The notes beneath the pieces are model-generated. The model saw only the letters and a list, made by a program, of their open reading frames with translations. It had not been told where the DNA came from and ran no database searches. A stretch of DNA of 64,000 nt, taken from Rhodobacteraceae bacterium HLUCCO18. GTDB lineage: Bacteria; Pseudomonadota; Alphaproteobacteria; Rhodobacterales; Rhodobacteraceae. Below are positions 1,554 through 56,317 of the stretch, piece by piece; position 1 is the first letter of the stretch, and each line of letters starts with the position of its first letter. Location of the stretch: the NCBI GenBank assembly GCA_001314805.1, contig LJSY01000002.1:1-64000 (forward strand), given 5' to 3'. A program made the translations under genes and the position numbers.

Positions 1554-3181
1554 CAATCGGTGACCTCCATGACCGCGCTCCGCAGCTCCTCCAGCTCCTC
1601 CATGATCTCCCGCTCGACGGCCATCAGCTCGTCGAGGATCTCCAGCGGATCACGATGCTCGACCTGGGCGCGGCTCTGCGGACGGTAGCGCCCAGCGCTG
1701 AGGTTGAAATCCGCCGCGCGGATGGTGTCGGTATCCGCGAACCACCACTTGGCGGTCCATTCGGCCCCCGCATCACGGCCCTGCCACTCCCTCAGCCGAT
1801 CCTCCCGATGCCCGAACGCCTCGATCAGGTCGGGCAGGTCGTCGGCCTCGATGGGCGTGTCGTGGTTTGCGTCGAGCTTGAAGCCATCCGCCTCGGCATG
1901 GAGGAACATCACGTTCCCGGTCGCACCACCCTTGCGGAAGATCAGGACCGAGGTCTTGACCCCGGAATAGGGGTTGAAGACGCCACCGGGCAGGGACAGC
2001 ACGGCCTCGACCCGGTTGTTCTCGACCAGTTGCCGCCGCAGCTCCTTGTGCGCGCCGGTCGAGCCGAACAGGACCCCCTCGGGGATGACGACGCCGCAGC
2101 GCCCACCCTCCTTCAGATGGTTCAGCATGTACTTGAGGAACAGGAGTTCAGTCTGCGTCGTGCTGCCGACGCGCACGTCATCGACGATGCGATCCTTGTC
2201 GAGACGACCCGAGAACGGCGGGTTGGCGAGGACGACATCGAAGCCCTCGATCGGGATGCCAAGCTCCTGCTTCTGGGCAGTCTCCAACGTCCGCGTGAGG
2301 GCGTCACGGCGCAGGATGCGGACCTTGTCGAGGCCACGCAGGAAGAGGTTCATGGTGGCGAGACGGACCATCTGAGGGTCCACATCATTCCCGAAGAATG
2401 TGCCCTCCGTCAGTTGGCGCTGGGCCTCGCGGCTGAGCCGGTCGCCAAGGCCGCGCTTGATCTGCTTGCCGTCCACCTCAGCGCTCTCAATGGCTGCGTC
2501 GGTCGAGTTGGCGAGGCGGATGTGTTCGTACGCCGCCACGAGAAACCCGGCGGTGCCAGCGGCCGGGTCGTAGATCGTTTCGCCCAGACGGGGATCGAGC
2601 ATCTCGACGATGGTGCGGATGACATGGCGCGGGGTGCGGAACTGGCCCAGCTCACCGGCTTGCTTGATCTGGCGAAGGACATGCTCGAACAGGTCGCCCT
2701 TCGTGTCGCTGTCCATCCGGTCGAGCTGCAGGTCCTCGATCCGCGTGAGGACCTGGGCGAGGACGGTCGGCTCGTCGATGACTAGGCGCGCGCCATCCAT
2801 GAAGTTGGTCACGCCATCCCGCGCGATGTCGCCGTAGAAGGCGAACACCTCGTCGCGGACCCATGAGACCAGCCGCTCGCCGTTCAACGCCTTGGCCCAG
2901 CTCGACCAGCGGAGACGCTCCTTCGGCACCTCCTCGATGCCGCGCTGGGGCGCGTTCAGCGGGTTGCGGAGCTTCCATGTCCCGTCGAAGGCGCTGGTAT
3001 AGGGATCGGACCCCGGACGTTTCGCGGCGCGGACGCGGGCGGCATCCATCGCCTCGAACATGAAGAAGAACATCAGAAAGCTGAGCTGTTCCGCATTTTG
3101 AGCGGGGTTTGGATACCCGCCGCCGTAGAGGTAATCGCGGATCTGGTCGATGCTGCGCCTGAGGTCGGGCGTGAGGGTCAT
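1553..3181 (-). CDS. hsdM: Type I restriction-modification DNA methyltransferase HsdM
   Basis: This N6-adenine methyltransferase modifies the host copies of the HsdS target and is part of the restriction complex. The 542 residues contain an N-terminal helical HsdM domain (about 5-150), the SAM-binding motif DPAAGTAGFL near residue 206 and the catalytic motif NPPF in VVLANPPFSG near residue 320. The C-terminus is helical and acidic (LDELMAVEREIMEELEEL), as in HsdM proteins that contact HsdS. It lies 18 bp downstream of hsdR and its stop overlaps the hsdS start by one base, so the three genes look like one transcript with coupled translation. Confidence 0.95.
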   Translation of the reverse strand: MTLTPDLRRSIDQIRDYLYGGGYPNPAQNAEQLSFLMFFFMFEAMDAARVRAAKRPGSDPYTSAFDGTWKLRNPLNAPQRGIEEVPKERLRWSSWAKALNGERLVSWVRDEVFAFYGDIARDGVTNFMDGARLVIDEPTVLAQVLTRIEDLQLDRMDSDTKGDLFEHVLRQIKQAGELGQFRTPRHVIRTIVEMLDPRLGETIYDPAAGTAGFLVAAYEHIRLANSTDAAIESAEVDGKQIKRGLGDRLSREAQRQLTEGTFFGNDVDPQMVRLATMNLFLRGLDKVRILRRDALTRTLETAQKQELGIPIEGFDVVLANPPFSGRLDKDRIVDDVRVGSTTQTELLFLKYMLNHLKEGGRCGVVIPEGVLFGSTGAHKELRRQLVENNRVEAVLSLPGGVFNPYSGVKTSVLIFRKGGATGNVMFLHAEADGFKLDANHDTPIEADDLPDLIEAFGHREDRLREWQGRDAGAEWTAKWWFADTDTIRAADFNLSAGRYRPQSRAQVEHRDPLEILDELMAVEREIMEELEELRSAVMEVTD

Positions 3182-3199
3182 GGCTGCTCTTTTCTTCTG

Positions 3200-5341
3200 T
3201 CAGGCCGTTGGCCGCACGGAGTCGTCATCGCTGGTACCTGCGCGGGGCGGCACGGGGAAGACATCGACGTTGAGAGAGGCCAGCATCTCCTCCAGCGCGG
3301 CCTCGCCCCCGAAGACTCGCACGGCTTCGTTGTAGCCGCCCCACTTGTCGAAGGGATGCTCGTCGAGGTCGTATTCCCAGAAGCCTTCGGCATTCATCGC
3401 CTCGGTCTTCAAGGAGCTTTCGATCAGCCCCAGCCAACGCTCTTGCCGGACATCCCAAGCCCGTTTGGACATCCACGCCTGAAACCGCATCCCGAGGGCG
3501 TTGGCGGCGGCGACATGTTCGTCCGTCCTGACGATGCGCCCGTTCTCGTCGAGCGTGACCCAATCGCGAGACGCAGGGTCGATGTGGTCGTGAACGTCCA
3601 GTTCCAGCAAGCGGCGCGGTTGGCTTGGTCCTGTGGTTGGCTTGCCTTGGATCACGATCCCGCCGGGGATGTTCTCCTCATCGTCCCCGTGGAAGTCAGT
3701 CACGCCCACGAAGTCGAACATGGTGAAGGCAGATTTGTGGATGTGCGGCGCTTGGCGCGTCCCGCGTCCGCGCATCTGCTGGTAGAGGATCGCACTCTGC
3801 GTGAAGCGGGCCATCACTAGGTTGACCACCTCGGGGCAGTCGAACCCCGTGTCGAGCATGTTCACGCTGACGAGGATCTTGGGGAACTCCTCTTTCTTGA
3901 ACCGCTTGATCTTGTCGCTTGCCCCCTCGGTCGGCCCGGACCCAACATCACTGACCACGAAGTCGGCATAACGCGTCGTAGAGTGCGGCTTGAGGTCGGC
4001 GAAATGAGTGTCGAACATCGTCGCCAGCGTCTCGGCATGTTTCTTGGTGACCGCGAAAACGATGGTCTTGCCGTGGCGAGGCGTTCGCTTGATGCCGTCC
4101 GTCCCCTTGAAGCCGTTCTCCAGGACCTCGCGGAACTCCCGCACGATGGCCCTGTTGCGCTCGGGGATCGTGAACTTGCGTTCGAGCGCGCGGGGATCGA
4201 CCTTGATCGTCTCGGACCCGTCGAAGAGTTCCTCAAACTCGGCCTTGGTCTCCTCGTCCATGGCCGTCCAGTCCAGCTCGTCCCGCTTCACCGGGAACCC
4301 ACCGTCGGCTGCCGTCTTCACGGTCATGGCCTTGTAGATCCGGTAAGGGACGAGGTGGCCGTCCTCGATGGCCTCAGGCAGGGTGTAGCGGAAGGTCGGC
4401 TCGGTTACCTCGAAGAATCGCAGCGTGTCGCGGACGAACTGTGCGTCTTCCTCGTCCGAAATGTCGTCGGGGTTCACGGTGCAGGGCGTGGCCGTCAGGC
4501 CCACCTTGATCCCGTCGAAGTGGCGCAGGACGCCGCTGAATTTGCCGTAGATGGACCGGTGGCACTCATCGACGATGATCAGGTCGAAGTATCCCGAGGA
4601 CAGCTGATCGTATTCGTTGACCATTGTCTGCAGGGTTGCGACCGTGATCCGCTTCGCATGATCGATCCCCCGCGCCCCCTTGAGGATGTAGGAGGGGTAG
4701 GAGGAAAGGTGATCGACCAGAGCCTCCTCGGCCTGTCGCGCAAGCTCGATCCGATCCACGAGGAAGAGAACGCGGGTGATCTGGCTCGCCTCGAAGAGCC
4801 GCTTGATGAATGCGGCAGCGGTGCGCGTCTTGCCGGTCCCGGTTGCCATCTCGACGAGGAGCTTTCGGCGTCCACGCTCTATCTCGGTGCAGAGGGTTTC
4901 AATGCACTCGAGTTGATATGGACGTCCTGCGATGGCCTTGTCCGTATCCACGTCACTGAGCTTGCGCCGGACGGATCGGACAGCGATACGGCGTTCGAGG
5001 TCGCTCTGAGAGAACACCGTCGCCACCTTGCGGGCATGGGCATCGACATGGCGGTCAAGGTGCCAGACCTCCTCACCATTGGCGAGGAAGACGAACGGCA
5101 CGTCCAGCAGGTCGGCGTAATATCTGCCTTGGTCTTGCGCAGCGATAGGATCGACCGAGGTACGCTTGGCCTCCAGCACCGCCATCGGACGCCCAGCGCG
5201 ATCACAGAGGACGTAATCAGCGCGAGTACCGTCCGCAAGCGTGTACTCGTAGAGAACGCTTGTCCCGTCATCGAGCGTCCATCCGGCATCGCGGAGAAGG
5301 GCATCGATCTTGACGCGGGAGAATGCTTCGCTCTTCGACAC
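3200..5341 (-). CDS. hsdR: Type I restriction endonuclease motor subunit HsdR
   Basis: HsdR cuts unmodified DNA after ATP-driven translocation. The 713 residues show a PD-(D/E)xK nuclease region (ADYVLCD followed by VLEAKR, residues about 38-60), Walker A EMATGTGKTRTA (about 165), the DEAD-type box VDECHRS (about 256) and the late helicase motif QMRGRGTRQ (about 545). It has a short EcoEI-like C-terminal domain. It is clearly shorter than EcoKI-type R subunits (over 1,000 residues), but all catalytic motifs are present, so it reads as a compact subtype and not a truncation. It is the first gene of the operon. Confidence 0.95.
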   Translation of the reverse strand: MSKSEAFSRVKIDALLRDAGWTLDDGTSVLYEYTLADGTRADYVLCDRAGRPMAVLEAKRTSVDPIAAQDQGRYYADLLDVPFVFLANGEEVWHLDRHVDAHARKVATVFSQSDLERRIAVRSVRRKLSDVDTDKAIAGRPYQLECIETLCTEIERGRRKLLVEMATGTGKTRTAAAFIKRLFEASQITRVLFLVDRIELARQAEEALVDHLSSYPSYILKGARGIDHAKRITVATLQTMVNEYDQLSSGYFDLIIVDECHRSIYGKFSGVLRHFDGIKVGLTATPCTVNPDDISDEEDAQFVRDTLRFFEVTEPTFRYTLPEAIEDGHLVPYRIYKAMTVKTAADGGFPVKRDELDWTAMDEETKAEFEELFDGSETIKVDPRALERKFTIPERNRAIVREFREVLENGFKGTDGIKRTPRHGKTIVFAVTKKHAETLATMFDTHFADLKPHSTTRYADFVVSDVGSGPTEGASDKIKRFKKEEFPKILVSVNMLDTGFDCPEVVNLVMARFTQSAILYQQMRGRGTRQAPHIHKSAFTMFDFVGVTDFHGDDEENIPGGIVIQGKPTTGPSQPRRLLELDVHDHIDPASRDWVTLDENGRIVRTDEHVAAANALGMRFQAWMSKRAWDVRQERWLGLIESSLKTEAMNAEGFWEYDLDEHPFDKWGGYNEAVRVFGGEAALEEMLASLNVDVFPVPPRAGTSDDDSVRPTA

Positions 5342-9136: not shown

Positions 9137-9601
9137 ATGGATCTCTCGTCATTGCTGAAGCCGGAGGCCGTGCGCGTGCTGTCCGATATCAGCAGCAAGA
9201 AGCGACTCCTGCAGTCGATCGCGGACATGGCCGAGGGCCTGATCGGCCTGCCGATGTCGCAGATCTTCGACGCGCTTCAGGAACGCGAAAGCCTGGGGCC
9301 GACGGGCGTGGGAAATGGCGTCGCCCTGCCCCATGCGCGGCTTTCGGCGCTGACCAAGGTGCATGGCGCGTTTATCCGGCTCGAGAAACCGGTGGACTTC
9401 GAGGCGGCGGACAAACAGCCCGTCGATCTGGTCTTTGCGCTTTTTGCGCCGACCGATACGGGCGTCGATCACCTCAAGGCGCTGGCGCTGGTATCCCGGA
9501 CGCTGAGGGATCAGACCCTGTGCAACAAGCTGCGTGCCAACGGCGATCCTGCGACGCTCTATACCATCCTGACCGAAGCGGCCGAGACCAAGGCGGCGTG
9601 A
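9137..9601 (+). CDS. ptsN: Nitrogen-regulatory PTS EIIA protein PtsN
   Basis: This is the EIIA-Ntr phosphocarrier of the regulatory nitrogen-related phosphotransferase chain, which controls K+ and nitrogen functions and does not transport sugar. In the 154 residues the phospho-accepting histidine is in GVALPHARL (about residue 73). The surrounding EIIA fold is complete, including the VDLVFALFAP strand. The start at 9137 has an AGGGGA site. Its stop meets the convergent sulfotransferase gene inside a shared hairpin. Confidence 0.95.
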   Translation: MDLSSLLKPEAVRVLSDISSKKRLLQSIADMAEGLIGLPMSQIFDALQERESLGPTGVGNGVALPHARLSALTKVHGAFIRLEKPVDFEAADKQPVDLVFALFAPTDTGVDHLKALALVSRTLRDQTLCNKLRANGDPATLYTILTEAAETKAA

Positions 9602-9619
9602 CGTATCCCTGTCACGCCG
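9594..9619. terminator. Hairpin shared by ptsN and the convergent sulfotransferase gene
   Basis: A perfect 9-bp inverted repeat (CGGCGTGAC at 9594-9602, GTCACGCCG at 9611-9619) with an 8-base loop spans the end of ptsN and the stop of the opposite gene. There is no clear T-run on either side, so it is either a weak bidirectional terminator or an mRNA 3'-end stabiliser. Confidence 0.5.
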
Positions 9620-11009
9620 TCTCGGACATCGAAAAACCGAACTGTATGAAATCCTTGCGGTAGGCGTCGAAGACGGCCTTGCGCAGATCATGGTTCGCCA
9701 GACAGGCGCGCCACGCCGCGTCGGTTTCAGCGTCGTCCGGCCAGCCGGGTGCCTGTAGCCCCATCGCGGCGGCCAGATGCGCAAGGCCTGTCGCCGCGTC
9801 CCTTTCCCGGATGATGCGTTGCGGCAGGACCACGAGGGCGGCGGCCTGCAGCAGTGCGGCCTGCGTCGTCCACTCGGCCTGCGCCTTCAGGCTGTCCCGA
9901 CCCGTCAGGCTGCCTTTCAAGGCTGCGACGAACGCCAGCATCGCTTCGGGCGCCGGGCGGGTGAAATCTACCTTGTGACGCTCCGACAGAATAGCGCGGA
10001 TTTCCGCGCCGCGCGCGTCCCCGGCCTGCTGCAGATCGCGATAGGCCCGCAAAACCCTGAGCAGGGGATGGCGCACGAGGGTGAAGCTTGCGAAGCCGGG
10101 ATGCGTCCGCATCCATTTGCGCAGATCCTTCTGGGTCATTCCGGTCAGAAGACCCTCGCGCCCCACGCCACCGATCTCCGCCATCCAGTCCAGCACCGGT
10201 TCGACCGGCGCGCCGGCGACCGGCAGGAACAGCAGTCCGGCGTCGGGATGGGCCACGAAACCGGGCACGCCGGGCGGGCGCGGTACCTCGCCATCGGTGA
10301 TCCGATCCAGTCCGAACCGGTCGATCCGGGCAAGCGCCGCCTCCATCTCGGCCGCGTTCTCGACCTTGTCCCAGATCGCGCCGGGATTCTGGCGTTTCAG
10401 ACGCTGAGAGGCCGCCTCCAGACGATGACCGGACCCCAGAAACCCGGCCAGCCCGTTAAGGATATCGACGTCGTTTATGTCGTCGTACCGGATGTGGAAC
10501 GCGGTTTGCCCCGTGACCTGCAGCCCGTGGCGAAGCCTGTCGCGAAAACCGGCCCAGTCGGCCAGCATCTGGCCGAATTCACCCGCGTCGAAGGTGATCC
10601 TGTCCGTTTTCGCGTGTTTTACGTCCGTCAGCCGCCATTGCCCCGTCGCCGTGGCGATCTTGCGGCTGACATAGCTGTCGAGCGGGTTGCGCGTGAGAAG
10701 CACCTTGGCGATGCGACGGTCGGTCAGGATGCGCTCCAAGACCCTCGGGTCATGGTCGTGGAAGAACCGGAACCCCGGCAGCGGGCCGTTTTCGGCGATC
10801 ATCGCGTCCACGAGACCCACCGGATCACGCTCCCGCCGGGCCATGTCGAAGCCCAGAAGCTCGAACTGGTTGTGCCGCCCGATGAAGACCGGGTTGAACA
10901 GCTCCCCGTGACAGCGGACGTCCGCAAGTCCATTGAGGCTTTCCTCGAGGTGGTTCGACCCTGTCCGCATCTCCGCGAAGATCACGAAGGCATCGTATCG
11001 CCGGTCCAT
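9612..11009 (-). CDS. Two-part PAPS-dependent sulfotransferase-like protein
   Basis: Sulfotransferases move sulfate from PAPS to sugars or lipids. The first half of the 465 residues looks like the Stf0 type: FAEMRTGSNHLEESL (residues 11-25) carries the 5'-phosphosulfate loop, and LLTRNPLDSYVS (about 105-116) the 3'-phosphate contact. The second half (about 245-465) contains FTLVRHPLLRVLRAY, which looks like another sulfotransferase core but lacks an obvious PAPS loop of its own. The protein may therefore be a fusion with one active half. It is the last gene of a glycosyltransferase run that begins with cysQ, so a glycan substrate is likely but unproven. Confidence 0.72.
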   Translation of the reverse strand: MDRRYDAFVIFAEMRTGSNHLEESLNGLADVRCHGELFNPVFIGRHNQFELLGFDMARRERDPVGLVDAMIAENGPLPGFRFFHDHDPRVLERILTDRRIAKVLLTRNPLDSYVSRKIATATGQWRLTDVKHAKTDRITFDAGEFGQMLADWAGFRDRLRHGLQVTGQTAFHIRYDDINDVDILNGLAGFLGSGHRLEAASQRLKRQNPGAIWDKVENAAEMEAALARIDRFGLDRITDGEVPRPPGVPGFVAHPDAGLLFLPVAGAPVEPVLDWMAEIGGVGREGLLTGMTQKDLRKWMRTHPGFASFTLVRHPLLRVLRAYRDLQQAGDARGAEIRAILSERHKVDFTRPAPEAMLAFVAALKGSLTGRDSLKAQAEWTTQAALLQAAALVVLPQRIIRERDAATGLAHLAAAMGLQAPGWPDDAETDAAWRACLANHDLRKAVFDAYRKDFIQFGFSMSETA

Positions 11010-11012
11010 GTC

Positions 11013-12716
11013 CTACCTCACCAGGTAAGGACGGTGGGTGTCGGCCGGGCGCGGATCGTCGCCGTATCCTTCCTGCGGGAAATCACCGACGAGGAACGGG
11101 TTCATGCCCTGGTTTCTGAGGCTTTGCAGGAATTGTGGGAAACCTTCGAGTTTGGCCATACGGGGCGCCTCGGTCAGCCGCTGGACGGGCGCGCCTTCCA
11201 TGGCGTCGAGAATGCCTTGCAGGTTTTCCATCGGTTCCTCGAGGAAATCGGCCAACGTCCAGATGCGGATATCGGCGCGGCGGCTGCGGTCACGCAGGGT
11301 TTCCACGAATTCCGCCTCGGTCCGCTGCAGGCGCGCGGCCTCGGTCCGGATATGCGAGAAATTGCGGTTCGACGCGAAAAGCCGCACCGCCCAGGCGCCC
11401 GTGATGACCGAGATCTGCGCATTGTGGTCATTGGCCATGAAGACGCAGGGGCGCTGGTTGTCCTGCGGGCCGAACATGAACACCTGCCGCTCGCCCCGCG
11501 TGTTCCAGATAAGGTTCGTCAGGAACGCCTCGGGGTTGTAATCCCGCAGCTTGGCCGACGCGCTCAGCCCGCCCGCATAGGTGTCTGCACCCCCGGCGAA
11601 CCGGGCGCGGCGCGGCGCGAAAAGGTTGGCATGCACCGTCGTGCCCAGCCGGCGCGACAACCACGCCTCGAAATCCTGGAACAGGTCGTTGAAGCCGTGA
11701 AACACTGAATAGGGTCCGGCGGTGACCCCGTTTTCCCAGCCGGGGTTGGGGAAACGGCTATGCATATAGAGCCCCGGACGCCCCCGCGTGCGCCGCTCCA
11801 GCGCCTTGGAGAACACGCGGTCGATCTTGCCGGGCGCCGGTTCCGCCATCCGGTCGCCGCTGTGTTCCGCGCTCAGGAAGGTGCGATAGAGCCGGTCGGC
11901 CCGGGGCCAGACCTTGCGCGCCACGAAACAGTCGGATCGGCGCAGCAGGTGAAGGTGATCGTCGTAGAAGACATGCGGTTTGCCCTGGAAATCGAATTTC
12001 GACAGGGTGAGCGACCGGCTTTCGATCCGGCGGCCGTAATTGCGCACCAGCGTCTGGTAATAGCTTTCGTCCGGGATCCAGACATACTTGAAATACCGGT
12101 CCAATTCCCTGCGGCGCGGGTCCTCGAGGATCGCCGACAGGGTCTGCCGGGTCAGGCACCACCACTGGCTACCCAGGTGCGGCGTGATCCCCTCCGGCAC
12201 CTCGCGGCGGCGACCGGTCTTGCGCTGAAACTCCACGTAGCGGTCGAAGAGAAAGCGCTGGCGCTTCCACGAGAACGGAAAGCGGAATTCGAAACGCTCC
12301 TCGTTGAGGCCGCCGACGGTCCAGTCGACCTCGCTGATGGTGACGCTCTCGATGAAATCCGTCATCGGGCGCGCGGCGAGGTAGGAGCGCAGTTCCTCCA
12401 CCGGGCGCAGCGGCAGACAGGAGCCCGAGGCAAGATAGACATGCCGGACCGAGGGAAACTCCGCCAGAAGCATCTCGCTTGCGGTCTGGCTGGCCTTCAC
12501 CAGGGACCAAGTCCCCCATTCGCAACGGTGGCGCTTGCAGAAGCGCACATTGTCCAGATCGCTCAGGGATTGCCGAAACTCGTTGAACGCGTCACGGGGA
12601 ACCGACCGATCCACATGGATCACGATGGGGCACTCGCGTTCCGCCCAGTGCCGCGCCACCTGTGCGGCGCGATGCAGGGCGGTGTGGCAGATCATGGCGA
12701 AGCCCAGCGTGCTCAT
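11013..12716 (-). CDS. GT14-type beta-1,6-N-acetylglucosaminyltransferase-like protein with long C-terminal domain
   Basis: The N-terminal 270 residues resemble core-2/I-branching glycosyltransferases (family GT14): FAMICHT start, IVIHVDRSV, the VYLASGSCLPLRPV segment and SQWWCLTR then PDESYYQTL, which are family landmarks. The remaining roughly 300 residues match no enzyme I know and correspond to what is usually labelled DUF5928. I place the start at ATG 12716, overlapping the stop of the upstream glycosyltransferase by four bases, because a longer frame would run inside that gene. The product is 567 residues and probably cytoplasmic. Confidence 0.78.
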   Translation of the reverse strand: MSTLGFAMICHTALHRAAQVARHWAERECPIVIHVDRSVPRDAFNEFRQSLSDLDNVRFCKRHRCEWGTWSLVKASQTASEMLLAEFPSVRHVYLASGSCLPLRPVEELRSYLAARPMTDFIESVTISEVDWTVGGLNEERFEFRFPFSWKRQRFLFDRYVEFQRKTGRRREVPEGITPHLGSQWWCLTRQTLSAILEDPRRRELDRYFKYVWIPDESYYQTLVRNYGRRIESRSLTLSKFDFQGKPHVFYDDHLHLLRRSDCFVARKVWPRADRLYRTFLSAEHSGDRMAEPAPGKIDRVFSKALERRTRGRPGLYMHSRFPNPGWENGVTAGPYSVFHGFNDLFQDFEAWLSRRLGTTVHANLFAPRRARFAGGADTYAGGLSASAKLRDYNPEAFLTNLIWNTRGERQVFMFGPQDNQRPCVFMANDHNAQISVITGAWAVRLFASNRNFSHIRTEAARLQRTEAEFVETLRDRSRRADIRIWTLADFLEEPMENLQGILDAMEGAPVQRLTEAPRMAKLEGFPQFLQSLRNQGMNPFLVGDFPQEGYGDDPRPADTHRPYLVR

Positions 12717-13723
12717 GCCCAGTTCCCCTTGGACATGAGGCCGAGGATCTCGAGCTGGCGCCAGTTGATGTAGCGTTCGGACCACCGGGTCCAGAGATCG
12801 GGGTTCTGCGACAGCCCGTCGTAATAGGCCTTGTATTCCGCGCTCGCCGCGTAGTGCTGGCCGCGCTCCATCTCTTCGGCGGCCTTTTCGGGGAAGGTCG
12901 ACAGGAACTTCGCGTGCAGCAGGACACCCGAGGTCTTTTCCCCGCCCCATTCGTCGAACACGAGGTTCAGGCCGCGCGGCAGAAGCATGTGGGTGGAGCT
13001 TGAATAAGCGAAACCCTTCTGCCAGCGCACCAGCGGGATCTTGTTGAGCGCCGGCGCGCGTTCGGGGGTTTCGGCGAAGAACTTGCGCGCGCGCGGACCG
13101 CCCTGGATCCAGAGGTTTCCGTAGGTCCAGTTCCGTTCGATCATGTAATTGCCCGCGTCGAACCAGCAGGCGATGTCGAACGGGTTCTGCCCGTCGGCGC
13201 AGGGCTGCGCGGTGATCGGACCCTTGGGATACATGTCGAGCACCATGGCGCCGAAGCTTTTCACCGAGGACGCATCGAGCCAGTCGCAGAGCGCGGGCAA
13301 GGGCCGCGTGTCCGAGAACGGATAGACGAGGAATTCATCGGGATCGACCGTCAGACACCAATGCCCGGTGCCATGCAGCCTGAGCAGGCGGTTCATCCAG
13401 TCGATGCCGAACCGGGCGCGCTTGTAGCTTTCGGGCGTGGTCCAGACGGAACAGTCGGGCTGTTCGGCGAGATATTCGCGCGATCCGTCGTCACTGTCGT
13501 TGTCGACGAAGAGGAAATGGGACACGCCCCGCTCGCGGTAGTAGCCGAGGAAGTATTTCAGGCGCGGCCACTCGTTGCGCAGGGTGGCGAAGCACAGGAT
13601 GTCATCGGGGCGGATCGCGTCGGTCCGGTCGGCGACATGCAACAGGGACTGCCCCTTCCGCCATGCGCGGACGAGGTACTTCTTGCGCTCGAGGCGCAGT
13701 GCATAGCGCTGCACCGCCTTCAT
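12713..13723 (-). CDS. Family 2 glycosyltransferase
   Basis: A 336-residue GT-A fold enzyme of the Glyco_tranf_2_4 type. Visible landmarks are CFATLRNEWPRLKYFLGYYRERGV (N-terminal nucleotide-sugar region, about 44-67), FVDNDSDDGS (about 72-81) and the metal-binding DPDEFLVYP (about 127-135). It starts one base before the previous gene's stop region and ends overlapping the next start by four bases. Position in the run argues for a role in a surface glycan; sugar donor and acceptor are unknown. Confidence 0.82.
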   Translation of the reverse strand: MKAVQRYALRLERKKYLVRAWRKGQSLLHVADRTDAIRPDDILCFATLRNEWPRLKYFLGYYRERGVSHFLFVDNDSDDGSREYLAEQPDCSVWTTPESYKRARFGIDWMNRLLRLHGTGHWCLTVDPDEFLVYPFSDTRPLPALCDWLDASSVKSFGAMVLDMYPKGPITAQPCADGQNPFDIACWFDAGNYMIERNWTYGNLWIQGGPRARKFFAETPERAPALNKIPLVRWQKGFAYSSSTHMLLPRGLNLVFDEWGGEKTSGVLLHAKFLSTFPEKAAEEMERGQHYAASAEYKAYYDGLSQNPDLWTRWSERYINWRQLEILGLMSKGNWA

Positions 13724-14968
13724 TCATGGCCTTTCTGCTCGATCCCGCGACTCAGCCAGGGCCGCGGCTACCGTTCCGAAGTGATCCTGCCATCCGGGCC
13801 GTCCGGCGGATCGTTCCCGCGATCCGTCCAGATTGCCCGACATCCGTTTTTTTATCGTTTCAACCCAAGAATAGACGTCGTTTGGCTCCACGTAAACGGC
13901 ATCCGCGCCCAATCCGGACCGCAGGACCGGCAGATCGGAACAAATCGGCAAGAGACCATGGGCCAGCGCCTCGTGAGGGGGCAGGCCGAAGCCTTCGGCG
14001 AGGGACGGATAGAGGAGCGTGTCTGCCAGCCGGTACGCCTCCGCAAGCGCATCGTCCCCGGCCGCGGTGTCAAGGAAAACGGTCTTTCCGAACTGCGCGT
14101 GCGCCCCGATCTCCTCAGCGATCTCGGCGCCGCGCCAGCCCGTCTGGCCGAGGATATCCAGCCTCGGCAGCTCTCCGGGGGGCAAGTCCTGCGCGAGGAT
14201 ACTCCACGCCTTCAGAAGCACCGCGTGGTTTTTCCGGGGCTCCAGGGTGCCGACCATCAGAAAGCGTCCCGCGCCCGATTTCATAGCCACGGGCATGGCT
14301 CGCACCGGCACCCCGATCTCGGCGCGGATGACCCGGGGGCCGCCGGACGGCCAATGGGCCGCGAGCGCGCGCTCCGTGTCCTCCGACACCGCGACGACCA
14401 ATGAGGCGTTCCCAGCCACCTGGGCGATCCGCCCGGCGAGCCGGGCGGGCTGTTTCGGGGGAACGAGCTCCGGGTGAGTGACGGGGATGAGGTCGTGGAT
14501 CACGACGACCACCTCGGCGCCGCTCCGACGCATCGCGCCCAGAACCCGCGCGGTGTGATTGCTGTGACCCGGATTGACGTAAATGCGCGCCCCGTGCCTC
14601 CGGGCCATCGCCGCAAGCCCCCAGGGCGGACAACGGTCGATCGCATGACCGCGCAGCATCGCCTCGGCCCTGTGCCTGGGTCGCGCGCCGCGTCCCGTCA
14701 GCCGCGACCACGTGTCGGCGCGGCCCAACCCGGCGCCGCCGTCGCGCATCCGGGCGACAAGCGCGCGCACGCCCTTTGGTGGCAACAGGAGAAACCCCCG
14801 CGTCGTGCGGCAGAGCCCGCGCATCTGCGGGTTCACGGTCAGCAGGTGATCCGCCCAGGCAAGTTCGACACGGTCGATGCCGGTGGGCGCGGCCTGCCCC
14901 ACCCGCGTCAGCGTCCGTGTCAGATCGAGCCAGACCGCGCCGTTCGAGAGGGCGTCACCCGCCGGCAC
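13724..14968 (-). CDS. Family 4 (GT1-type) glycosyltransferase
   Basis: A retaining GT-B fold glycosyltransferase of 414 residues. The C-terminal nucleotide-binding half is clear: GTLEPRKNHAVLLKAW (about 256-271), then EGFGLPPHEALAHGLLPIC (about 338-356) with the donor-binding EX7E pattern. The N-terminal half carries VVVIHDLIPVTHPELVPP, typical of mannosyl- or rhamnosyl-transferases. It begins 13 bp after galU and abuts the next glycosyltransferase gene, so it is part of the same operon. The sugar specificity cannot be read from sequence. Confidence 0.85.
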   Translation of the reverse strand: MPAGDALSNGAVWLDLTRTLTRVGQAAPTGIDRVELAWADHLLTVNPQMRGLCRTTRGFLLLPPKGVRALVARMRDGGAGLGRADTWSRLTGRGARPRHRAEAMLRGHAIDRCPPWGLAAMARRHGARIYVNPGHSNHTARVLGAMRRSGAEVVVVIHDLIPVTHPELVPPKQPARLAGRIAQVAGNASLVVAVSEDTERALAAHWPSGGPRVIRAEIGVPVRAMPVAMKSGAGRFLMVGTLEPRKNHAVLLKAWSILAQDLPPGELPRLDILGQTGWRGAEIAEEIGAHAQFGKTVFLDTAAGDDALAEAYRLADTLLYPSLAEGFGLPPHEALAHGLLPICSDLPVLRSGLGADAVYVEPNDVYSWVETIKKRMSGNLDGSRERSAGRPGWQDHFGTVAAALAESRDRAERP

Positions 14969-14981
14969 CCAGCCCTGCCCG

Positions 14982-15875
14982 TCATTGCGCGGCGTTGCGC
15001 ACCGACAGCATGTCGGTCAGGAAATCGGTGAACTCGTCCCGCAGATCTTCGCGCGCCATGGCGAAAGCCACGGTCGCCTGAAGGAAACCGGCCTTGGACC
15101 CGCAGTCGAACCGCTGGCCCCGGAACCGGAACCCGTAGACGTTTTCGGAATTCTCGATCTCCTGCGCGATGGCATCGGTCAGCTGGATTTCTCCGCCGGC
15201 GCCGGACTTGAGCTTGTTGAGGTTCGACATGACCTGCGGGCTGAGGATGTAGCGGCCGATCACCGCAAGGTTCGACGGCGCCTCGCCGATCTTGGGCTTC
15301 TCGACCATGCCCTTCACGGAAACGACCGAGCCCATGTCCTCCTTCACATCGAGCATGCCATAGGCGTTCGTCCGGTTGTCGGGCACTTCCATCGCGGCGA
15401 CCATGTTGCCGCCAAGCTCTGCATAGGCCTCGACCATCTGTTGCAGGCAGGGCGTTTCGGCGGCGATGACGTCATCGGGAAGTATGACCGCGAAGGGCTC
15501 GTTGGCCAGAAGACGGCGGGCGCACCAGACCGCGTGGCCGAGCCCCAGCGGCTTGTGCTGCCGGATATAGGCGATGGCGCCACTGTCCATGTTGGTCGAC
15601 TTGAGCGTTTCCAGAAGCTCGGTCTTGCCCTTCTTGCGAAGCTGATTCTCGAGTTCGGGAGAATGGTCGAAGTAATCCTCCAGCGCGGACTTGCCCCGGC
15701 TGGTCACGAAGATGAATTCCTTGATGCCCGCCGCCCTTGCCTCGTCGATCGCGTACTGGATCAAAGGTCGGTCGACGAGGGTCATGATCTCCTTGGGTAC
15801 CGATTTCGTCGCCGGCAGGAACCGCGTTCCCAGACCCGCGACCGGAAAAATCGCTTTCGTGACCCGTTTTTTCAT
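14982..15875 (-). CDS. galU: UTP-glucose-1-phosphate uridylyltransferase
   Basis: GalU makes UDP-glucose from UTP and glucose 1-phosphate, feeding surface polysaccharides and osmolytes. The 297 residues start KKRVTKAIFPVAGLGTRFLPATK, the nucleotide-binding signature, followed by SVPKEIMTLVDRP, the GLGHAVWCAR segment and VKGMVEKPK, all diagnostic. It is flanked by glycosyltransferases on both sides, so it probably supplies the donor for them. A 78-bp gap upstream (15876-15953) could hold its own promoter. Confidence 0.95.
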   Translation of the reverse strand: MKKRVTKAIFPVAGLGTRFLPATKSVPKEIMTLVDRPLIQYAIDEARAAGIKEFIFVTSRGKSALEDYFDHSPELENQLRKKGKTELLETLKSTNMDSGAIAYIRQHKPLGLGHAVWCARRLLANEPFAVILPDDVIAAETPCLQQMVEAYAELGGNMVAAMEVPDNRTNAYGMLDVKEDMGSVVSVKGMVEKPKIGEAPSNLAVIGRYILSPQVMSNLNKLKSGAGGEIQLTDAIAQEIENSENVYGFRFRGQRFDCGSKAGFLQATVAFAMAREDLRDEFTDFLTDMLSVRNAAQ

Positions 15876-15953
15876 CTTCGCCTCGTACTGGTGAGCGTGA
15901 CAAACGAACCCTGTGCCGTTTCCACGCGATAATTGGCCCTAGTTACCGAATCG

Positions 15954-17198
15954 TTAACGCATCCGGAACTCCACATGCGGATCATCCGCGAACCTTGTGG
16001 CAGCGATGCGGCGGAGTTCTTCGGAGAGCCGCGTTTTTGCGCTCCAAAGCTGAAATCTTGACGATTTCCTGTCGGACCGACCATAGAGGCCTCCCCTCTG
16101 CTCCCACCATCCGCCCTCGGTAAAACGCACCTTGTGCGCCCTTGGTGTGGGGTCGAACAGAAACACAGTGACACGACTGCCCGCCCTTGTCAGCCTCTCA
16201 GCCTCGGCGCGAAGGCGGGCGGCATGCACCCACCATCCGCCAAGCACCACGTCACCCTCGACCGGCATTTCGGTCACGGGAAGAAAATCCCCGGTTCGGT
16301 TCGGGATCGCCTGCGTCGAGTGCGCGCGTGTCCGCCCGTCCTCGATCCCCTCACCCAGGCTGTGCATGAGCGTTTCGACATCCCGCGCCCCGAGCTTGCG
16401 TTTGCGCACCAGCCGGAACAGTCGCGCGCGCTGATCCTCGGCCAGTTGCCGCAGTGCCGGATCCATCTCGTCCGGGGCATGTTTTCGCAGGAAGACGGTC
16501 GTCGACGCGCCGATATCATGGAGGCTCAACGGCACCCGGTCCGCCGTGCGCCGCGCGCTGGCCGCGAAGGCGTGATGCACCTGCGCCGAGGGTAGCCACG
16601 TGGCGGCGTGTCCGGCTTCGGCGAGACGCAGGGCGAGGTCGGTGTCGTCGAGAAAGAAGCGGAACGCGGGATCGAAGCCACCCAGCGCGTCGAGGACGTC
16701 GCGGCGAATGGCCATGTTCGTGCCGTGAAGCTTTAGGACCGTTCCATCCGGCATGGGACCGTCAGGATCGTCGAGCGGCGTATCGCGACCTTGCCGGTCC
16801 ACCGCCACCGGCCCCCATTGCAGGGAAATCCCGTTCCGACCCAGAACGGGGCCGGTCACCGCGGCACGGGCGGGCGAGGCATGAAAGGCGCGCGTGATCG
16901 CCTCGGCCCAGGTCGGTTCGGGCACCGCGTCGTCATCGATGAAGGCGACAATCTCGCCGGCGGCCTGCGCGATCCCGTCATTGCGGGCCTGCGCGAGATT
17001 GGCCTCAGCCTGCAGAACCGTCCTGATCCGTCCGGCATCGGGCAGACGCGCGACTGCCTCCAGACCTTCCTTGTCAGCGACGACGACCGCTTCCAGCCGG
17101 ACCCGCGCGCTCTGGCTGAGCGCCATCAGACACCGCCGCAGCGCGCCGGGCCGCCCATGGCTGGCCACGACCACGCTGAGCGACGGCGCATCGGTCAT
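15954..17198 (-). CDS. Family 2 glycosyltransferase with extra C-terminal domain
   Basis: The first 230 residues form a GT-A glycosyltransferase: SVVVASHGRPGALRRCL (about 7-23), AQARNDGIAQAAGEIVAFIDDDAVP with the DxD-like metal site (about 83-107) and FDPAFRFFLDDTDLALRLAEAGH (about 193-215). The last 180 residues are charged and unassigned, including VVLGGWWVHAARLRAEAERL. ATG at 17198 is chosen because it overlaps the kdsB stop by four bases; a longer frame lies inside kdsB. Length is 414 residues. Acceptor unknown. Confidence 0.8.
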   Translation of the reverse strand: MTDAPSLSVVVASHGRPGALRRCLMALSQSARVRLEAVVVADKEGLEAVARLPDAGRIRTVLQAEANLAQARNDGIAQAAGEIVAFIDDDAVPEPTWAEAITRAFHASPARAAVTGPVLGRNGISLQWGPVAVDRQGRDTPLDDPDGPMPDGTVLKLHGTNMAIRRDVLDALGGFDPAFRFFLDDTDLALRLAEAGHAATWLPSAQVHHAFAASARRTADRVPLSLHDIGASTTVFLRKHAPDEMDPALRQLAEDQRARLFRLVRKRKLGARDVETLMHSLGEGIEDGRTRAHSTQAIPNRTGDFLPVTEMPVEGDVVLGGWWVHAARLRAEAERLTRAGSRVTVFLFDPTPRAHKVRFTEGGWWEQRGGLYGRSDRKSSRFQLWSAKTRLSEELRRIAATRFADDPHVEFRMR

Positions 17199-17995
17199 TC
17201 CATGCCCATCTCGGCCATCATCGCCTCGATCCGGGGAATGTCCTCGGGGTTGTTCAGCTCCCAGAACTTGCGCCCGCGGGCCTCCACCTCGACGCAAAGG
17301 ACCTTGTGGCCCGCCTCGAGGAACCGCAGCTGTTCGAGGCCTTCGAGGTCTTCCAGCGGTCCGACTGTCCAGTCAGGATAGGCATGCAGCGCCCAAGGCC
17401 GGTAGGCATAGACCCCGACATGGTGAAAGACCGGAGTCTCTTCCGCGTCGGCGTAGTCCTGCGCGGTGAAGGGGATTACCTCCTTCGAGAAGTAAAGCGC
17501 GCGGCGTGCGCTGTCGCAGACCGCCGTGGTGCCGCCGACGCGACCCGCGGCCCGGTCGGCCTTGAGCGCGCGAAGCGTCGCCCCGTCGCAGCGCAGGATC
17601 GGCGTCGCCAGCGCGGCCTGGCTGTCGGCGCCGAGGCCCTCGATCAGCGCCTCGAGAAACCAGGCCGGGGTCAGCGGCGCGTCGCCCTGCAGGTTCACGA
17701 CCATCTCGACCCCGTCGCCCAGAAGGCCCAGCGCCTCGGCGCAGCGCTCGGTGCCGTTGCGGCAGGTCTCGGACGTCATCAGGACATCGGCGCCAAACCC
17801 GCGGGCGGCTTCGGCGATCCGGTCATCATCGGTGGCGACGTAGACGGCATCGAAGCGGTCGACTTCAAGGGCGGCACGCCATGTGCGATCGATCAGGCTC
17901 CGCGCTTCACCACCTGCGCCCCGCAGGAGCGCCAGCGGCTTTCCGGGGAACCGGACCGACGGATAGCGCGCGGGGATGACGCAGACGGTCGTCAC
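17195..17995 (-). CDS. kdsB: 3-deoxy-manno-octulosonate cytidylyltransferase
   Basis: KdsB activates Kdo as CMP-Kdo for LPS core or for capsular polysaccharides that carry Kdo. The 266 residues contain VIPARYPSVRFPGKPLAL (residues 5-22), VATDDDRIAEAARGFG and VVNLQGDAPL (about 108). The last reads DAPL where most KdsB proteins have DEPL, so a related cytidylyltransferase of the capsule-type clade is possible. GTG at 17995 overlaps the cysQ stop (GTGA). Its presence in this run suggests a Kdo-containing glycan or linker. Confidence 0.85.
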   Translation of the reverse strand: MTTVCVIPARYPSVRFPGKPLALLRGAGGEARSLIDRTWRAALEVDRFDAVYVATDDDRIAEAARGFGADVLMTSETCRNGTERCAEALGLLGDGVEMVVNLQGDAPLTPAWFLEALIEGLGADSQAALATPILRCDGATLRALKADRAAGRVGGTTAVCDSARRALYFSKEVIPFTAQDYADAEETPVFHHVGVYAYRPWALHAYPDWTVGPLEDLEGLEQLRFLEAGHKVLCVEVEARGRKFWELNNPEDIPRIEAMMAEMGME

Positions 17996-18789
17996 GGCGT
18001 CTTCAGCTCGACGCCGGGGGCGTGGGCGATGAAGAACCCGTTGGCGAAACCGGCCTTGCCATAGTCGAACGGTGCGTGGTCGTCGAAGCGGACGACGGTT
18101 CCCCCCGCGCCGCGCAGGACGGCGTCGCCCGCGGCCGTGTCCCATTCCATCGTGCGGCCAAGACGCGGATAGAGATCCGCCTCACCGGTGGCCACGAGAC
18201 AGAATTTCAGGGAGCTTCCGGCGCTTTTCAGGTCCGCGACCCCGTATTTCGCGATGTAGGCATCCGTCGCGGCATCGCGGTGCGACTTGGACGCGACGAC
18301 GAAAAGCGCGCCATTGTCAGGCGTGCGGACATGGATCGGCTTGGCATCGCCCGGGGTTTCGGCGTCGAACGGGCCGATTTCCTCGACGCTTTCACCATCG
18401 GCCGTCGTGTAGAAAAGCCGCCCCTTGGCCGGCGCATAGACGACGCCCCGCGTTGGTACGGCGTCCTCGACCAGCGCGATGTTCACGGTGAAATCGCCGC
18501 GCCGCTGCACGAATTCCTTGGTGCCGTCCAGCGGATCGACGATCAGGAAGGTGCGCGCCTCGATGGCATGGCTGCCGGCCTGTTCCTCGGTCACCAGCGC
18601 GATATCCGGGAACGCGGCCCGCAGGCGCTCCGATATCAGCGCATCGGCGGCTTCGTCGGCCACGGTCACGGGGCTGTCGTCGGACTTGGCGCGGACCTCG
18701 AAATCGTCGGCCTCGTAGACCTCCATGATACGGTCCCCGGCCAGAAGGGCCGAGCGCCGCAATTCAACCATTAATGCGTTGTAATCCAT
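17992..18789 (-). CDS. cysQ: 3'(2'),5'-bisphosphate nucleotidase CysQ
   Basis: CysQ hydrolyses PAP, the inhibitory product of PAPS-using enzymes, to AMP. The 265 residues belong to the inositol monophosphatase fold: metal-binding EEQAGSH, IVDPLDGTKEFVQR (about 85-98) and the terminal EWDTAAGDAVLRGAGG (about 210-225). ATG at 18789 (MDYNALMVEL) is preferred over a longer start seven codons up. It is the first gene of a polysaccharide run that ends with a sulfotransferase, a pairing that makes biochemical sense because sulfotransferases release PAP. It faces the divergent ABC permease gene. Confidence 0.93.
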   Translation of the reverse strand: MDYNALMVELRRSALLAGDRIMEVYEADDFEVRAKSDDSPVTVADEAADALISERLRAAFPDIALVTEEQAGSHAIEARTFLIVDPLDGTKEFVQRRGDFTVNIALVEDAVPTRGVVYAPAKGRLFYTTADGESVEEIGPFDAETPGDAKPIHVRTPDNGALFVVASKSHRDAATDAYIAKYGVADLKSAGSSLKFCLVATGEADLYPRLGRTMEWDTAAGDAVLRGAGGTVVRFDDHAPFDYGKAGFANGFFIAHAPGVELKTP

Positions 18790-18960
18790 TTCTCGCCTAT
18801 CTCCCGGCATGCCAATTGAACGCGCGTCGCCCCCGCGTTATCGTCTGGCATGGGCTTTCGGCAAGGGTGTAGGCACCCCGGGGGCCACGTGGCGCGCCAA
18901 ACCGCGCCGAAAAACACGGGGCAGGGCAACACCGCGCCGCAAGACCAAGAGCAGAGGCAG

Positions 18961-19782
18961 ATGTTCGAAACCGCCCGACGCACCAGCACAGGTTCGCTCC
19001 TGCTCAGCCTGCTTGGCGTGACTTACCACGCCTCGGTGCGAAAGGTGCGCAAGACCCATGGCAACGCGCTTGTCGCGATCGGGATGAGCGTCTTCCAGAG
19101 TGTCCTGTTCCTTGCTGCGTTCTACCTGATCTTCACCATCATGGGTGCCCGGACGATGGCGATCCGCGGCGACTTCATGCTCTACCTGCTGTCCGGCATC
19201 TTCCTTTACCTCGTGCATATCCAGGCCCTGACCTCGGTGATGAATTCCGAGAATTCGACCTCGCCCATGATGCAGCACGCGCCGATGAACACGCTGGTGG
19301 CGATCCTGTCCTCGGCGCTGTCGATACTCTACGTGAAGACCATCAGCATCCTGGTGATCCTCTTCGTGCTGCACACATTGTTCCAGCCGATCGAGATGGA
19401 CGACTGGTCCGGCGCGATGCTGATGTATCTGCTGGCCTGGGGTTCGGGCTGCGCGATCGGCCTGATCCTGATGGCGTTCAAACCCTGGGCGCCGGACGTC
19501 GTGTCCATCATCCAGCTGGTCTACGTGCGCGCCAACATGATCGCCTCGGGCAAGATGTTCGTCGCGAACACGCTGCCGGGGTTCATGCTGGCCATGTTCG
19601 ACTGGAACCCCCTGTTCCACATCATCGACCAGACGCGGGGCTTCGTCTTCGTCAACTATTTCCCGCATTATTCGAACTGGCAGTATCCGCTCTATGCAAC
19701 CTTCGCGCTGATCATGATCGGCATGATGGGCGAGTTTTTCACCCGCAAGCGCGCTTCGGCCAGCTGGGACGCGCGCCGCTGA
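18961..19782 (+). CDS. ABC-2 type polysaccharide export permease (KpsM/Wzm-like)
   Basis: A 273-residue inner-membrane protein with about six hydrophobic segments, e.g. NALVAIGMSVFQSVLFLAAFYLIFTIMG (about 33-60), FMLYLLSGIFLYLV and LYATFALIMIGMMGEFF near the C-terminus. Length and pattern fit the ABC-2 permeases that export capsule or O-antigen. The matching ATPase is not adjacent. ATG at 18961 is chosen because the upstream part of the frame is basic and unlike a protein start. It is transcribed away from the cysQ-glycosyltransferase operon and may export its product. Confidence 0.72.
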   Translation: MFETARRTSTGSLLLSLLGVTYHASVRKVRKTHGNALVAIGMSVFQSVLFLAAFYLIFTIMGARTMAIRGDFMLYLLSGIFLYLVHIQALTSVMNSENSTSPMMQHAPMNTLVAILSSALSILYVKTISILVILFVLHTLFQPIEMDDWSGAMLMYLLAWGSGCAIGLILMAFKPWAPDVVSIIQLVYVRANMIASGKMFVANTLPGFMLAMFDWNPLFHIIDQTRGFVFVNYFPHYSNWQYPLYATFALIMIGMMGEFFTRKRASASWDARR

Positions 19783-55319: not shown

Positions 55320-56317
55320 GCCTCGATGTGCCCAACCTCAAGGACTACGACAACAAGCTTCGCGAGGAGGCCAACGAGCCCACGCTGGAAGTTCCCCAGG
55401 GCGAGCCCACCAAAAAGACGCAGATCATCGCGATCTACGGCAAGGGCGGCATCGGCAAGTCCTTCACGCTCGCCAATCTCAGCCACATGATGGCCGAACA
55501 GGGCAAGCGCGTGCTGCTGATCGGCTGCGACCCGAAATCCGACACCACCTCGCTGCTCTTCGGCGGCAAGGCCTGCCCGACGATCATCGAGACCTCGACC
55601 CAGAAGAAACTGGCCGGCGAGGAAGTGAAGATCGGCGACGTCTGCTTCAAGCGCGGCGGCGTCTTCGCGATGGAACTTGGCGGTCCCGAAGTGGGCCGCG
55701 GCTGTGGCGGCCGGGGCATCATCCACGGCTTCGAGCTGCTGGAGAAGCTCGGCTTCCACGACTGGGACTTCGACTACGTTCTGCTCGATTTCCTCGGCGA
55801 CGTGGTCTGCGGCGGCTTCGGCCTGCCGATCGCCCGCGACATGGCGCAGAAGGTGATCCTCGTCGCGTCGAACGATCTGCAATCGCTCTATGTCGCCAAC
55901 AACGTCTGCTCGGCGGTGGAATATTTCCGCAAGCTGGGCGGCAATGTCGGCGTCGCGGGCCTCGTGGTGAACAAGGATGACGGCTCGGGCGAGGCGCAGG
56001 CTTTCGCCAAGGCGGTCGACATCCCGATCCTCGCCTCGATCCCGCAGAACGACGACCTGCGCAAGAAATCGGCGAATTACCAGATCGTCGGCACCGCCGA
56101 GAGCGAATGGGGCCAATTGTTCGCCGGGCTGGGCGACAACGTGGCCGAGGCGCCGCCGATGCGGCCGACCGCGCTGAACCAGGATGAGCTTCTGGCGCTG
56201 TTCGACGGGTCGGAAACGGGCGCCGGATACGAGCTTGTGCCCGCCACCGACGCCGACATGCGCGGCAAGGACGCGAAGCCCAAGCAATCCCTCGAAGTGA
56301 TTTACGACGAGGCGTGA
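55316..56317 (+). CDS. bchX: Chlorophyllide a reductase iron protein BchX
   Basis: BchX is the NifH-like ATPase that donates electrons to the BchY-BchZ component when ring B of chlorophyllide a is reduced. The 333 residues show the P-loop [20 protein letters not shown] (about 38-57), the cluster-ligand regions [12 protein letters not shown] (about 122-133) and [15 protein letters not shown] (about 158-172), and the C-terminal NifH-type tail. Starting at ATG 55316, it overlaps bchC by four bases and bchY by four bases. Confidence 0.97.

Follow-up and report, generated by a model that had tools for sequence, protein, structure and literature searches.

The window analysed here is a 64,000-nucleotide stretch of Rhodobacteraceae bacterium HLUCCO18, part of contig C56 of a 3.68-Mb genome (G000), which carries on its minus strand eight genes running head to tail: cysQ, kdsB, a GT2 family glycosyltransferase gene, galU, a GT4 family glycosyltransferase gene, a PF13704 (GT2_4) gene, a gene for a protein with a GT14 domain and DUF5927, and a gene for a tandem sulfotransferase (Table 1). 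A gene for a KpsM/VexB-like permease adjoins the cysQ end of the run and is oriented divergently on the plus strand. From cysQ to the sulfotransferase gene the seven junctions consist of two 4-bp overlaps, gaps of 78 and 13 bp, an abutting pair, a further 4-bp overlap and a gap of 3 bp, lengths which depend on the start codons chosen. With junctions of at most 78 bp this confirms the same-strand run with overlaps or gaps below 80 bp that had been described from the letters of the window alone (the original prediction), and such junctions make it likely that the operon genes are on one transcript. The four glycosyltransferases counted there are likewise confirmed by family matches. Three genes exceed the cut-off of a curated model: cysQ reaches 261.9 bits on TIGR01331 (cut-off 228.8; scanned open reading frame (ORF) 17992-18810), kdsB 326.8 bits on NF003950 (cut-off 234) and 131.8 on TIGR00466, below its 155.2 (scanned ORF 17195-18145), and galU 338.6 bits on TIGR01099 (cut-off 326.8). 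Just beyond ptsN/raiA, on the strand opposite to the operon, lie lptC, lptA and lptB, the last of which, on the far side of the operon from the permease, is the only ABC (ATP-binding cassette) ATPase gene seen nearby. A promoter and terminator scan of positions 9400-19100 was uninformative, with no sigma-70-like sites and with five terminator-like sites against 7.1 in shuffles.

The block is family-wide and kept in place, is probably old in the Rhodobacteraceae, and is no peculiarity of this genome. When named genomes were searched with the GT14-DUF5927 protein, at least 576 relatives among at least 595 stretches were returned, and the best 80 were kept; among the matches listed the nearest named ones are from Roseibacterium/Roseicyclus (up to 84%). 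At a coverage above 30% these 80 loci contain the PF13704 gene in 80 cases, the sulfotransferase gene in 77, galU in 74, cysQ in 70 and KpsM in 69, and less often kdsB (60), GT4 (57) and GT2 (54), some of the misses being contig ends. Among the loci that miss the sulfotransferase, L037 has a truncated copy of 183 residues, and L076 and L071, the latter on a short contig, hold other genes at its place. Complete loci, spanning kpsM to ptsN with ptsN within 13 kb, number 63, and the gene order is kept in every one of them. Each also holds cysQ, the PF13704 gene, GT14-DUF5927 and the sulfotransferase gene, and the permease is divergent in 63 of 63, a set which was fetched by GT14-DUF5927 and defined by having the divergent permease. 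Present in most are galU (62 of 63), lptB (56) and kdsB (55); in the eight loci lacking kdsB the next gene identified begins just 21-274 bp from cysQ, which leaves no room for it. The centre of the operon is the exchangeable part: GT2 and GT4 are each found in 47 of the 63 loci, at median identities of 45% and 38%, and the pair is exchanged in the other 16, where other genes probably occupy the interval from galU to the PF13704 gene because 1.2-2.4 kb remain there.

More weight is carried by an unselected sample of 198 genomes of the same family, one per genus, because the complete loci were fetched by GT14-DUF5927 and need ptsN, a rule under which a locus may be missed if both the sulfotransferase and the flank have been lost from it. 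In this sample DUF5927 occurs in 162 genomes and sulfotransferase profile matches (E ≤1e-10) in 163; 160 have both, two have DUF5927 alone (G440, G553), three the sulfotransferase alone (G515, G530 and, at 9e-11, G558) and 33 neither. The sulfotransferase gene neighbours DUF5927 on the same strand in 157 of the 162 positive genomes. Where a genome stood among the best 150 places of each of the two profile listings (147 genomes), the sulfotransferase gene follows GT14-DUF5927 on the same strand in 146. The remaining 16 positive genomes comprise G467, with the gene on another contig; G529, with the gene next door and an internal gap; twelve lower-scoring genomes, nine of which have it next door, one (G500) behind a DUF5927 fragment and two (G440, G457) not at the locus; and G553 and G560, in which no sulfotransferase lies beside GT14-DUF5927. 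An unlinked sulfotransferase in otherwise conserved relatives had been named beforehand as the observation that would speak against the locus, and it is rare (5/162: G467, G440, G457, G553, G560), but G560 (L100) has all the other genes of the run, and there ptsN follows immediately after GT14-DUF5927. GT14-DUF5927 genes without a neighbouring sulfotransferase can be inspected at L113 (G457), L111 (G440) and L099 (G553). In a sample of the class, DUF5927 was found in five of 385 genomes, all of the same family, whose share of the 385 is not given. Median identity to the window protein is 44% for the sulfotransferase and 66% for GT14-DUF5927, and the pairwise identities of the two covary (Spearman 0.57, 29 loci). 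Mirror-tree comparison with dnaK gives 0.28-0.42 for operon genes, 0.32-0.56 for flanking genes and 0.21-0.22 for GT2/GT4 (19-29 of the 29 loci per gene), which is compatible with vertical descent without being strong.

The last gene of the run had been labelled sulfotransferase-like, and this label holds by motifs, profile and fold but not by the Pfam score of the single sequence, which on PF13469 is 23.5 bits for the whole protein and 24.9 for the N-terminal half against a cut-off of 27. In an alignment of the N-domain from the window and 58 of 76 extracted sequences, all 59 proteins share the motifs MRTGSN, GE..NP and HD as well as R107 and S115 without exception; in a second set of 16 members, some of them diverged, only the T of MRTGSN and the D of HD vary. 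We take these motifs to be the 5'-phosphosulfate loop, a base like Glu36 of Stf0 and the 3'-phosphate (Arg/Ser) site. The nearest solved sequence relative is PDB 9vki, named "LPS sulfotransferase NodH" (LPS, lipopolysaccharide), with a profile match at E 7.9e-13. A predicted model of the whole protein has a mean pLDDT (predicted local distance difference test) of 89.7 and a predicted template modelling score (pTM) of 0.58; VIA-align of residues 3-244 gives Z 12.5 to heparan sulfate 3-O-sulfotransferase 3 (6xkg; 205 aligned, root-mean-square deviation (rmsd) 3.8) and Z 12.2 to mycobacterial Stf0 (1tex; 197 aligned, rmsd 4.4), and the best Foldseek match is a sulfotransferase (E 3.4e-4), with kinases lower in the list. 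Motifs, profile and predicted fold thus support a conserved domain of the NodH/Stf0 type that would use 3'-phosphoadenosine 5'-phosphosulfate (PAPS). The C-terminal half is read as a degenerate second sulfotransferase domain: eight of nine C-halves match Sulfotransfer_2 at E ≤1, three of nine over the cut-off and that of L022 not at all, and the match starts at about profile position 59 with the first motif absent. Compared directly with the N-domain it yields an HH probability of 8-12% and, in one comparison, a score of 27.6, hardly above the best shuffle (26.4). The protein resembles NodH/Stf0-type sulfotransferases in the motifs and fold of its N-domain, and is unlike them in having the extra degenerate domain and a constant GT14-DUF5927 neighbour.

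The first domain of this neighbour is, judged by sequence and by predicted structure, clearly a GT14 domain, with 80.6 bits on PF02485 (cut-off 23.4) and VIA-align Z-scores of 24.4 to C2GnT-L and 21.8 to human xylosyltransferase 1 (XylT1); it also fills the structure match lists for the whole protein. DUF5927 is more difficult to place. When it was compared with 20 profiles the sulfotransferase N-domain came first (36.8, next 20.6), and in the reverse comparison DUF5927 came first for the N-domain (31.7, next 26.2); the highest control scores were 22.6 among 10 shuffles and 18.5 among 20 segment shuffles that used secondary structure. The HH probability of the pair is 24-52% with the deeper alignment and, weakly, 2.0% with a shallow one, against 0.1-0.8% for 12 column shuffles. 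The aligned stretch covers sulfotransferase residues 21-99, and in a small unfiltered search this segment of the profile (21-98) also gave a faint match, at E 0.01, to the L113 DUF5927 protein. None of 20 DUF5927 members (12 lower-scoring, eight typical or nearly so) matches a sulfotransferase Pfam model at E ≤1, and by inspection the conserved columns of DUF5927 hold no MRTGSN-like motif or Arg/Ser equivalents. Comparison of DUF5927 with the C-domain profile gave no signal, and neither did the superfamily pairs kdsB/galU, GT2/GT2_4 and GT2/GT14, so that a missing signal means little in a test which also fails on pairs expected to be related. Outright membership in the sulfotransferases was rejected because the HH probability is so low, the Pfam match is lacking and the PAPS motifs are absent; the comparisons are only suggestive of a degenerate, sulfotransferase-derived domain. 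A search of the open-licence literature found no paper on DUF5927. It is conceivable, if rather doubtful, that GT14 fused to such a domain works with the adjacent tandem sulfotransferase on a family-defining sulfated polysaccharide, the degenerate domains positioning the chain end and so coupling GT14 addition to sulfation, and the sulfate serving as a terminal or export mark read by a split permease/KpsT-KpsE transporter.

Genes for export and for precursors lie elsewhere in the genome. The divergent gene had been labelled an ABC-2 permease that could export the product; its KpsM/VexB-like character and its orientation agree with this label, but its scores are below the model cut-offs (PF01061 18.4 against 26.9; 39.1 bits on VexB and 35 on KpsM, with NF050053 and NF011723 both below cut-off). 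A Thioclava permease that adjoins a KpsT-like ATPase shares 22.7% identity with it over 87%. On plasmid p2 of Thioclava sp. GXIMD4215 (L122) genes for a tyrosine autokinase, a family 2 sulfotransferase, a flippase and an O-antigen polymerase come after a capsule protein-ATPase-permease set, giving a mixed Kps/Wzx-Wzy look. An ATPase elsewhere, for which the original prediction had proposed to look, was found on contig C28, where KpsT, a KpsE-like protein and KdsA stand together in an operon with no KpsM beside them. This KpsT has 46.1 bits on PF00005 (cut-off 25), is 36% identical to the Thioclava ATPase and has VexC as its best NCBIfam model (99.2 bits, below cut-off); KpsE matches TIGR01010 (BexC/CtrB/KpsE) at E 4.3e-60 with 203.7 bits, below the cut-off of 437.5, and no Pfam model at 1e-3; KdsA, with 376.7 bits on TIGR01362, exceeds its cut-off of 314. 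Of the 162 DUF5927-positive genomes, 160 (all but G480 and G513) match the C28 KpsE strongly (E ≤1e-70, with the other ten matches no better than 3e-34), compared with eight of the 36 negative ones (Fisher p 1e-24, which ignores genome relatedness). In 15 stretches around KpsE, three of them from DUF5927-negative genomes (G452, G515, G530), KpsT adjoins in 15 (69-89% identity to the C28 KpsT), KdsA in ten and KpsM in none. In G522 (L145 5507-6472) a GT14-like gene, 35% identical to the window GT14-DUF5927, lies about 1 kb from kpsT-kpsE.

Contig C10 holds a second complete set, KpsE-KpsT with its own divergent KpsM (L138:3080-12661), beside a large RTX-repeat protein and a GT2 protein. Its KpsT was considered as partner of the window permease and found less likely because KpsE and KpsM adjoin it and the model preferences differ: the C10 permease prefers KpsM (76.7 against 42.1) and the C10 ATPase prefers Wzt (122.6), as opposed to VexB and VexC for the window permease and the C28 ATPase, all of these scores being below curated cut-offs. 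By these preferences the C28 KpsT is the better candidate partner for the window permease. On contig C1, PF05159 is matched over cut-off by ORFs of 437 and 699 residues, KpsS-like and KpsC-like respectively; the former matches NF050054 KpsS at E 2.1e-59, below cut-off, and the latter no NCBIfam model. Between them is a Poly_export and SLBB protein, over cut-off on those domains and with 108.5 bits on VexA, below cut-off. The genes for PAPS synthesis are likewise outside the run: the only APS (adenosine 5'-phosphosulfate) kinase match in the genome is a fused ATP sulfurylase-APS kinase on contig C29. About 3 kb from it is a TPR-sulfotransferase gene (the two genes at L096:8093-10162 and 12996-15065), a putative second sulfation site, and on C73 (L097:7645-8676) a sulfotransferase gene lies amid glycosyltransferase-like genes 30-33% identical to the window GT2/GT4, possibly another sulfated polysaccharide cluster.

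Taken together, the block is quite probably the biosynthetic half of an old, ABC-dependent (Kps/Vex-type) pathway for a sulfated surface polysaccharide, probably primed with 3-deoxy-D-manno-octulosonic acid (Kdo), whose genes are dispersed over the genome. Computed gene content, order, conservation, co-occurrence, folds and motifs underlie this reading, from which sulfation, Kdo linkage, subunit pairing and the surface location of the product are inferred. KdsA and KdsB would provide CMP-Kdo, with which the KpsS/KpsC-like proteins, serving this product and not only the C10 system, would prime the lipid. The four glycosyltransferases would build the chain with UDP-glucose provided through GalU, and the sulfurylase-kinase would make PAPS, from which the tandem sulfotransferase would transfer sulfate to the chain or to the part of it added by GT14. 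CysQ would destroy the inhibitory PAP (3'-phosphoadenosine 5'-phosphate), and the window permease with KpsT-KpsE and the VexA/KpsD-like SLBB protein may export the glycan, presumably a capsule rather than part of LPS. The original prediction of a possible sulfated surface polysaccharide locus thus holds as to a surface-polysaccharide operon with a PAPS-type sulfotransferase and with cysQ at its head in all 63 complete loci, but not as to an unusual local set. Several points weigh against this reading. The pathway, with its sulfate, Kdo and capsule, is predicted from genes; KpsC and KpsS could belong to the C10 system because that set is complete; the co-occurrence p-values take no account of relatedness; kdsB is missing from 8/63 complete loci; the product could be linked to LPS because lptC-lptA-lptB is next door; the permease, KpsT, KpsE and KpsS score below curated cut-offs and the KpsC-like protein has no NCBIfam match; and two of the 160 genomes with both proteins, G457 (3.9e-20) and G560 (9.9e-23), have weak sulfotransferase matches that do not lie beside DUF5927.

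An unlikely alternative is that the product is LPS extended, at its core or O-chain, by a sulfated part, with the permease acting like Wzm. The position of lptC-lptA-lptB, with lptB retained in most complete loci, and the name of the nearest solved relative of the sulfotransferase would fit such a product, as would the location in the operon of the only strong kdsB match in the genome (the next has 39.5 bits). However, the lpt genes are on the other strand, the models on which the permease and the genes co-occurring with it score are VexB/KpsM, VexC and KpsE, and KpsC/KpsS-like genes are present. As the only strong match, kdsB is probably used for LPS as well, and its presence alone is no proof of Kdo in this glycan. 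Its being the only copy also bears on the distinctly unlikely view that cysQ and kdsB are housekeeping genes which merely stand upstream, the glycan operon starting later and its product need not be sulfated. CysQ also serves sulfate assimilation in general, which is in keeping with that view. Against it, cysQ heads every complete locus while kdsB is gone from eight, as would be expected if cysQ and the sulfotransferase are linked; the genome also has three other inositol-phosphatase-family genes.

It is very unlikely that the sulfotransferase acts on some other substrate, such as a glycolipid, a Nod-factor-like signal or a small molecule, and is simply carried by an ordinary polysaccharide operon. 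Its faster evolution relative to GT14-DUF5927, its absence from beside that gene in five genomes and the lack of a known substrate could be so explained, but the two genes are neighbours in nearly all positive genomes, including nine of the eleven lower-scoring ones with long enough loci, and their identities covary. A sulfated, ABC-exported glycan accounts for the block with higher probability than any of these alternatives.

Sulfated capsules with kps, cysQ and sulfotransferase genes are already known. The original prediction named no described pathway with exactly this set, but cysQ and sulfotransferases are in print in one capsule cluster, that of Cobetia marina KMM 1449, for which the sulfated capsule structure has been determined together with an ABC-dependent kpsETMD, kpsSC, a sulfotransferase, PAPS genes and cysQ (PMC11766843). 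Cobetia belongs to the Gammaproteobacteria and keeps about 70 genes in a single cluster, where cysN/C, cysD and cysQ stand between kps operons; here the genes for PAPS synthesis, for KpsT/E and for KpsS/C lie at different places in the genome, cysQ heads a glycosyltransferase operon, and GT14-DUF5927 is present. In Vibrio sp. KMM 8419 the sulfated capsule cluster has kps genes in several regions, sulfotransferases and second cysC/N/D copies; its main text does not contain 'cysQ', and its authors report no public genome similarly organised, in contrast to the present family-wide block (PMC11641403). The Kps pathway is described as secretion through KpsMT-KpsE-KpsD with a KpsS/KpsC Kdo primer (PMC11041684), and its kinds of components recur here in dispersed form, mostly below curated cut-offs and with a nearly fixed sulfotransferase. 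The exporter of Vi antigen (Vex) is a further similar system, on whose VexB, VexC and VexA models the window permease, the C28 ATPase and the C1 SLBB protein score below cut-offs. Within the Rhodobacteraceae, the gene transfer agent receptor capsule of Rhodobacter capsulatus (rcc01081-rcc01086) is also a surface polysaccharide; it is absent from one strain and was set aside as the same locus because it is described with wza/wzb/wzc export genes, a judgement made on that description only (PMC10218006). A search of the open-licence literature, partly by titles and the starts of abstracts, found no paper on the present Rhodobacteraceae arrangement, and none on sulfated exopolysaccharides and sulfotransferases of the family or on the structure of an LPS sulfotransferase NodH.

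The Rhodobacteraceae, which comprise roseobacters, Rhodobacter and their relatives, form an abundant marine group found on algae and particles. If the reading is true, an old and near-universal sulfated coat would bear on adhesion, on phage and gene-transfer-agent reception and on marine organic sulfur. The DUF5927 hypothesis and the predicted pairing of orphan ABC subunits can both be tested by single-gene deletions.

Table 1. Features of the operon and its divergent neighbour (positions in the window).
Feature	Position	Strand	Basis or remark
cysQ, 3'(2'),5'-bisphosphate nucleotidase (PAP removal)	17992..18789	-	TIGR01331; alternative start 18810
kdsB, CMP-Kdo synthetase	17195..17995	-	NF003950; start chosen
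GT2 family glycosyltransferase, exchangeable centre	15954..17198	-	PF13641/PF00535
galU, UTP-glucose-1-phosphate uridylyltransferase	14982..15875	-	TIGR01099
GT4 family glycosyltransferase, exchangeable centre	13724..14968	-	PF00534/PF13692
Glyco_tranf_2_4 (PF13704) protein	12713..13723	-	Pfam match
GT14 core-2/xylosyltransferase-like domain (~1-290) and DUF5927 (~312-566)	11013..12716	-	PF02485, PF19349
Tandem sulfotransferase: N-domain 4-244, putative degenerate Sulfotransfer_2-like C-domain	9612..11009	-	motifs, profile, fold
Divergent KpsM/VexB-like ABC-2 permease	18961..19782 (start likely; ORF scanned 18850-19782)	+	VexB/KpsM models
cysQ-kpsM intergenic region, presumed site of divergent promoters	18790..18960	.	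coordinates

Elsewhere in the window, a type I restriction-modification-like pair, consisting of an N-6 DNA methylase and an HsdR-like helicase with EcoEI_R_C, lies at 1553-5341 on the minus strand. A nitrogenase-component-1-type oxidoreductase, which we take to be bch-like, is encoded at 56314-57927 and a reaction-centre cytochrome subunit at 62198-63301; both genes probably belong to a photosynthesis gene cluster, and the host may therefore be an anoxygenic phototroph.

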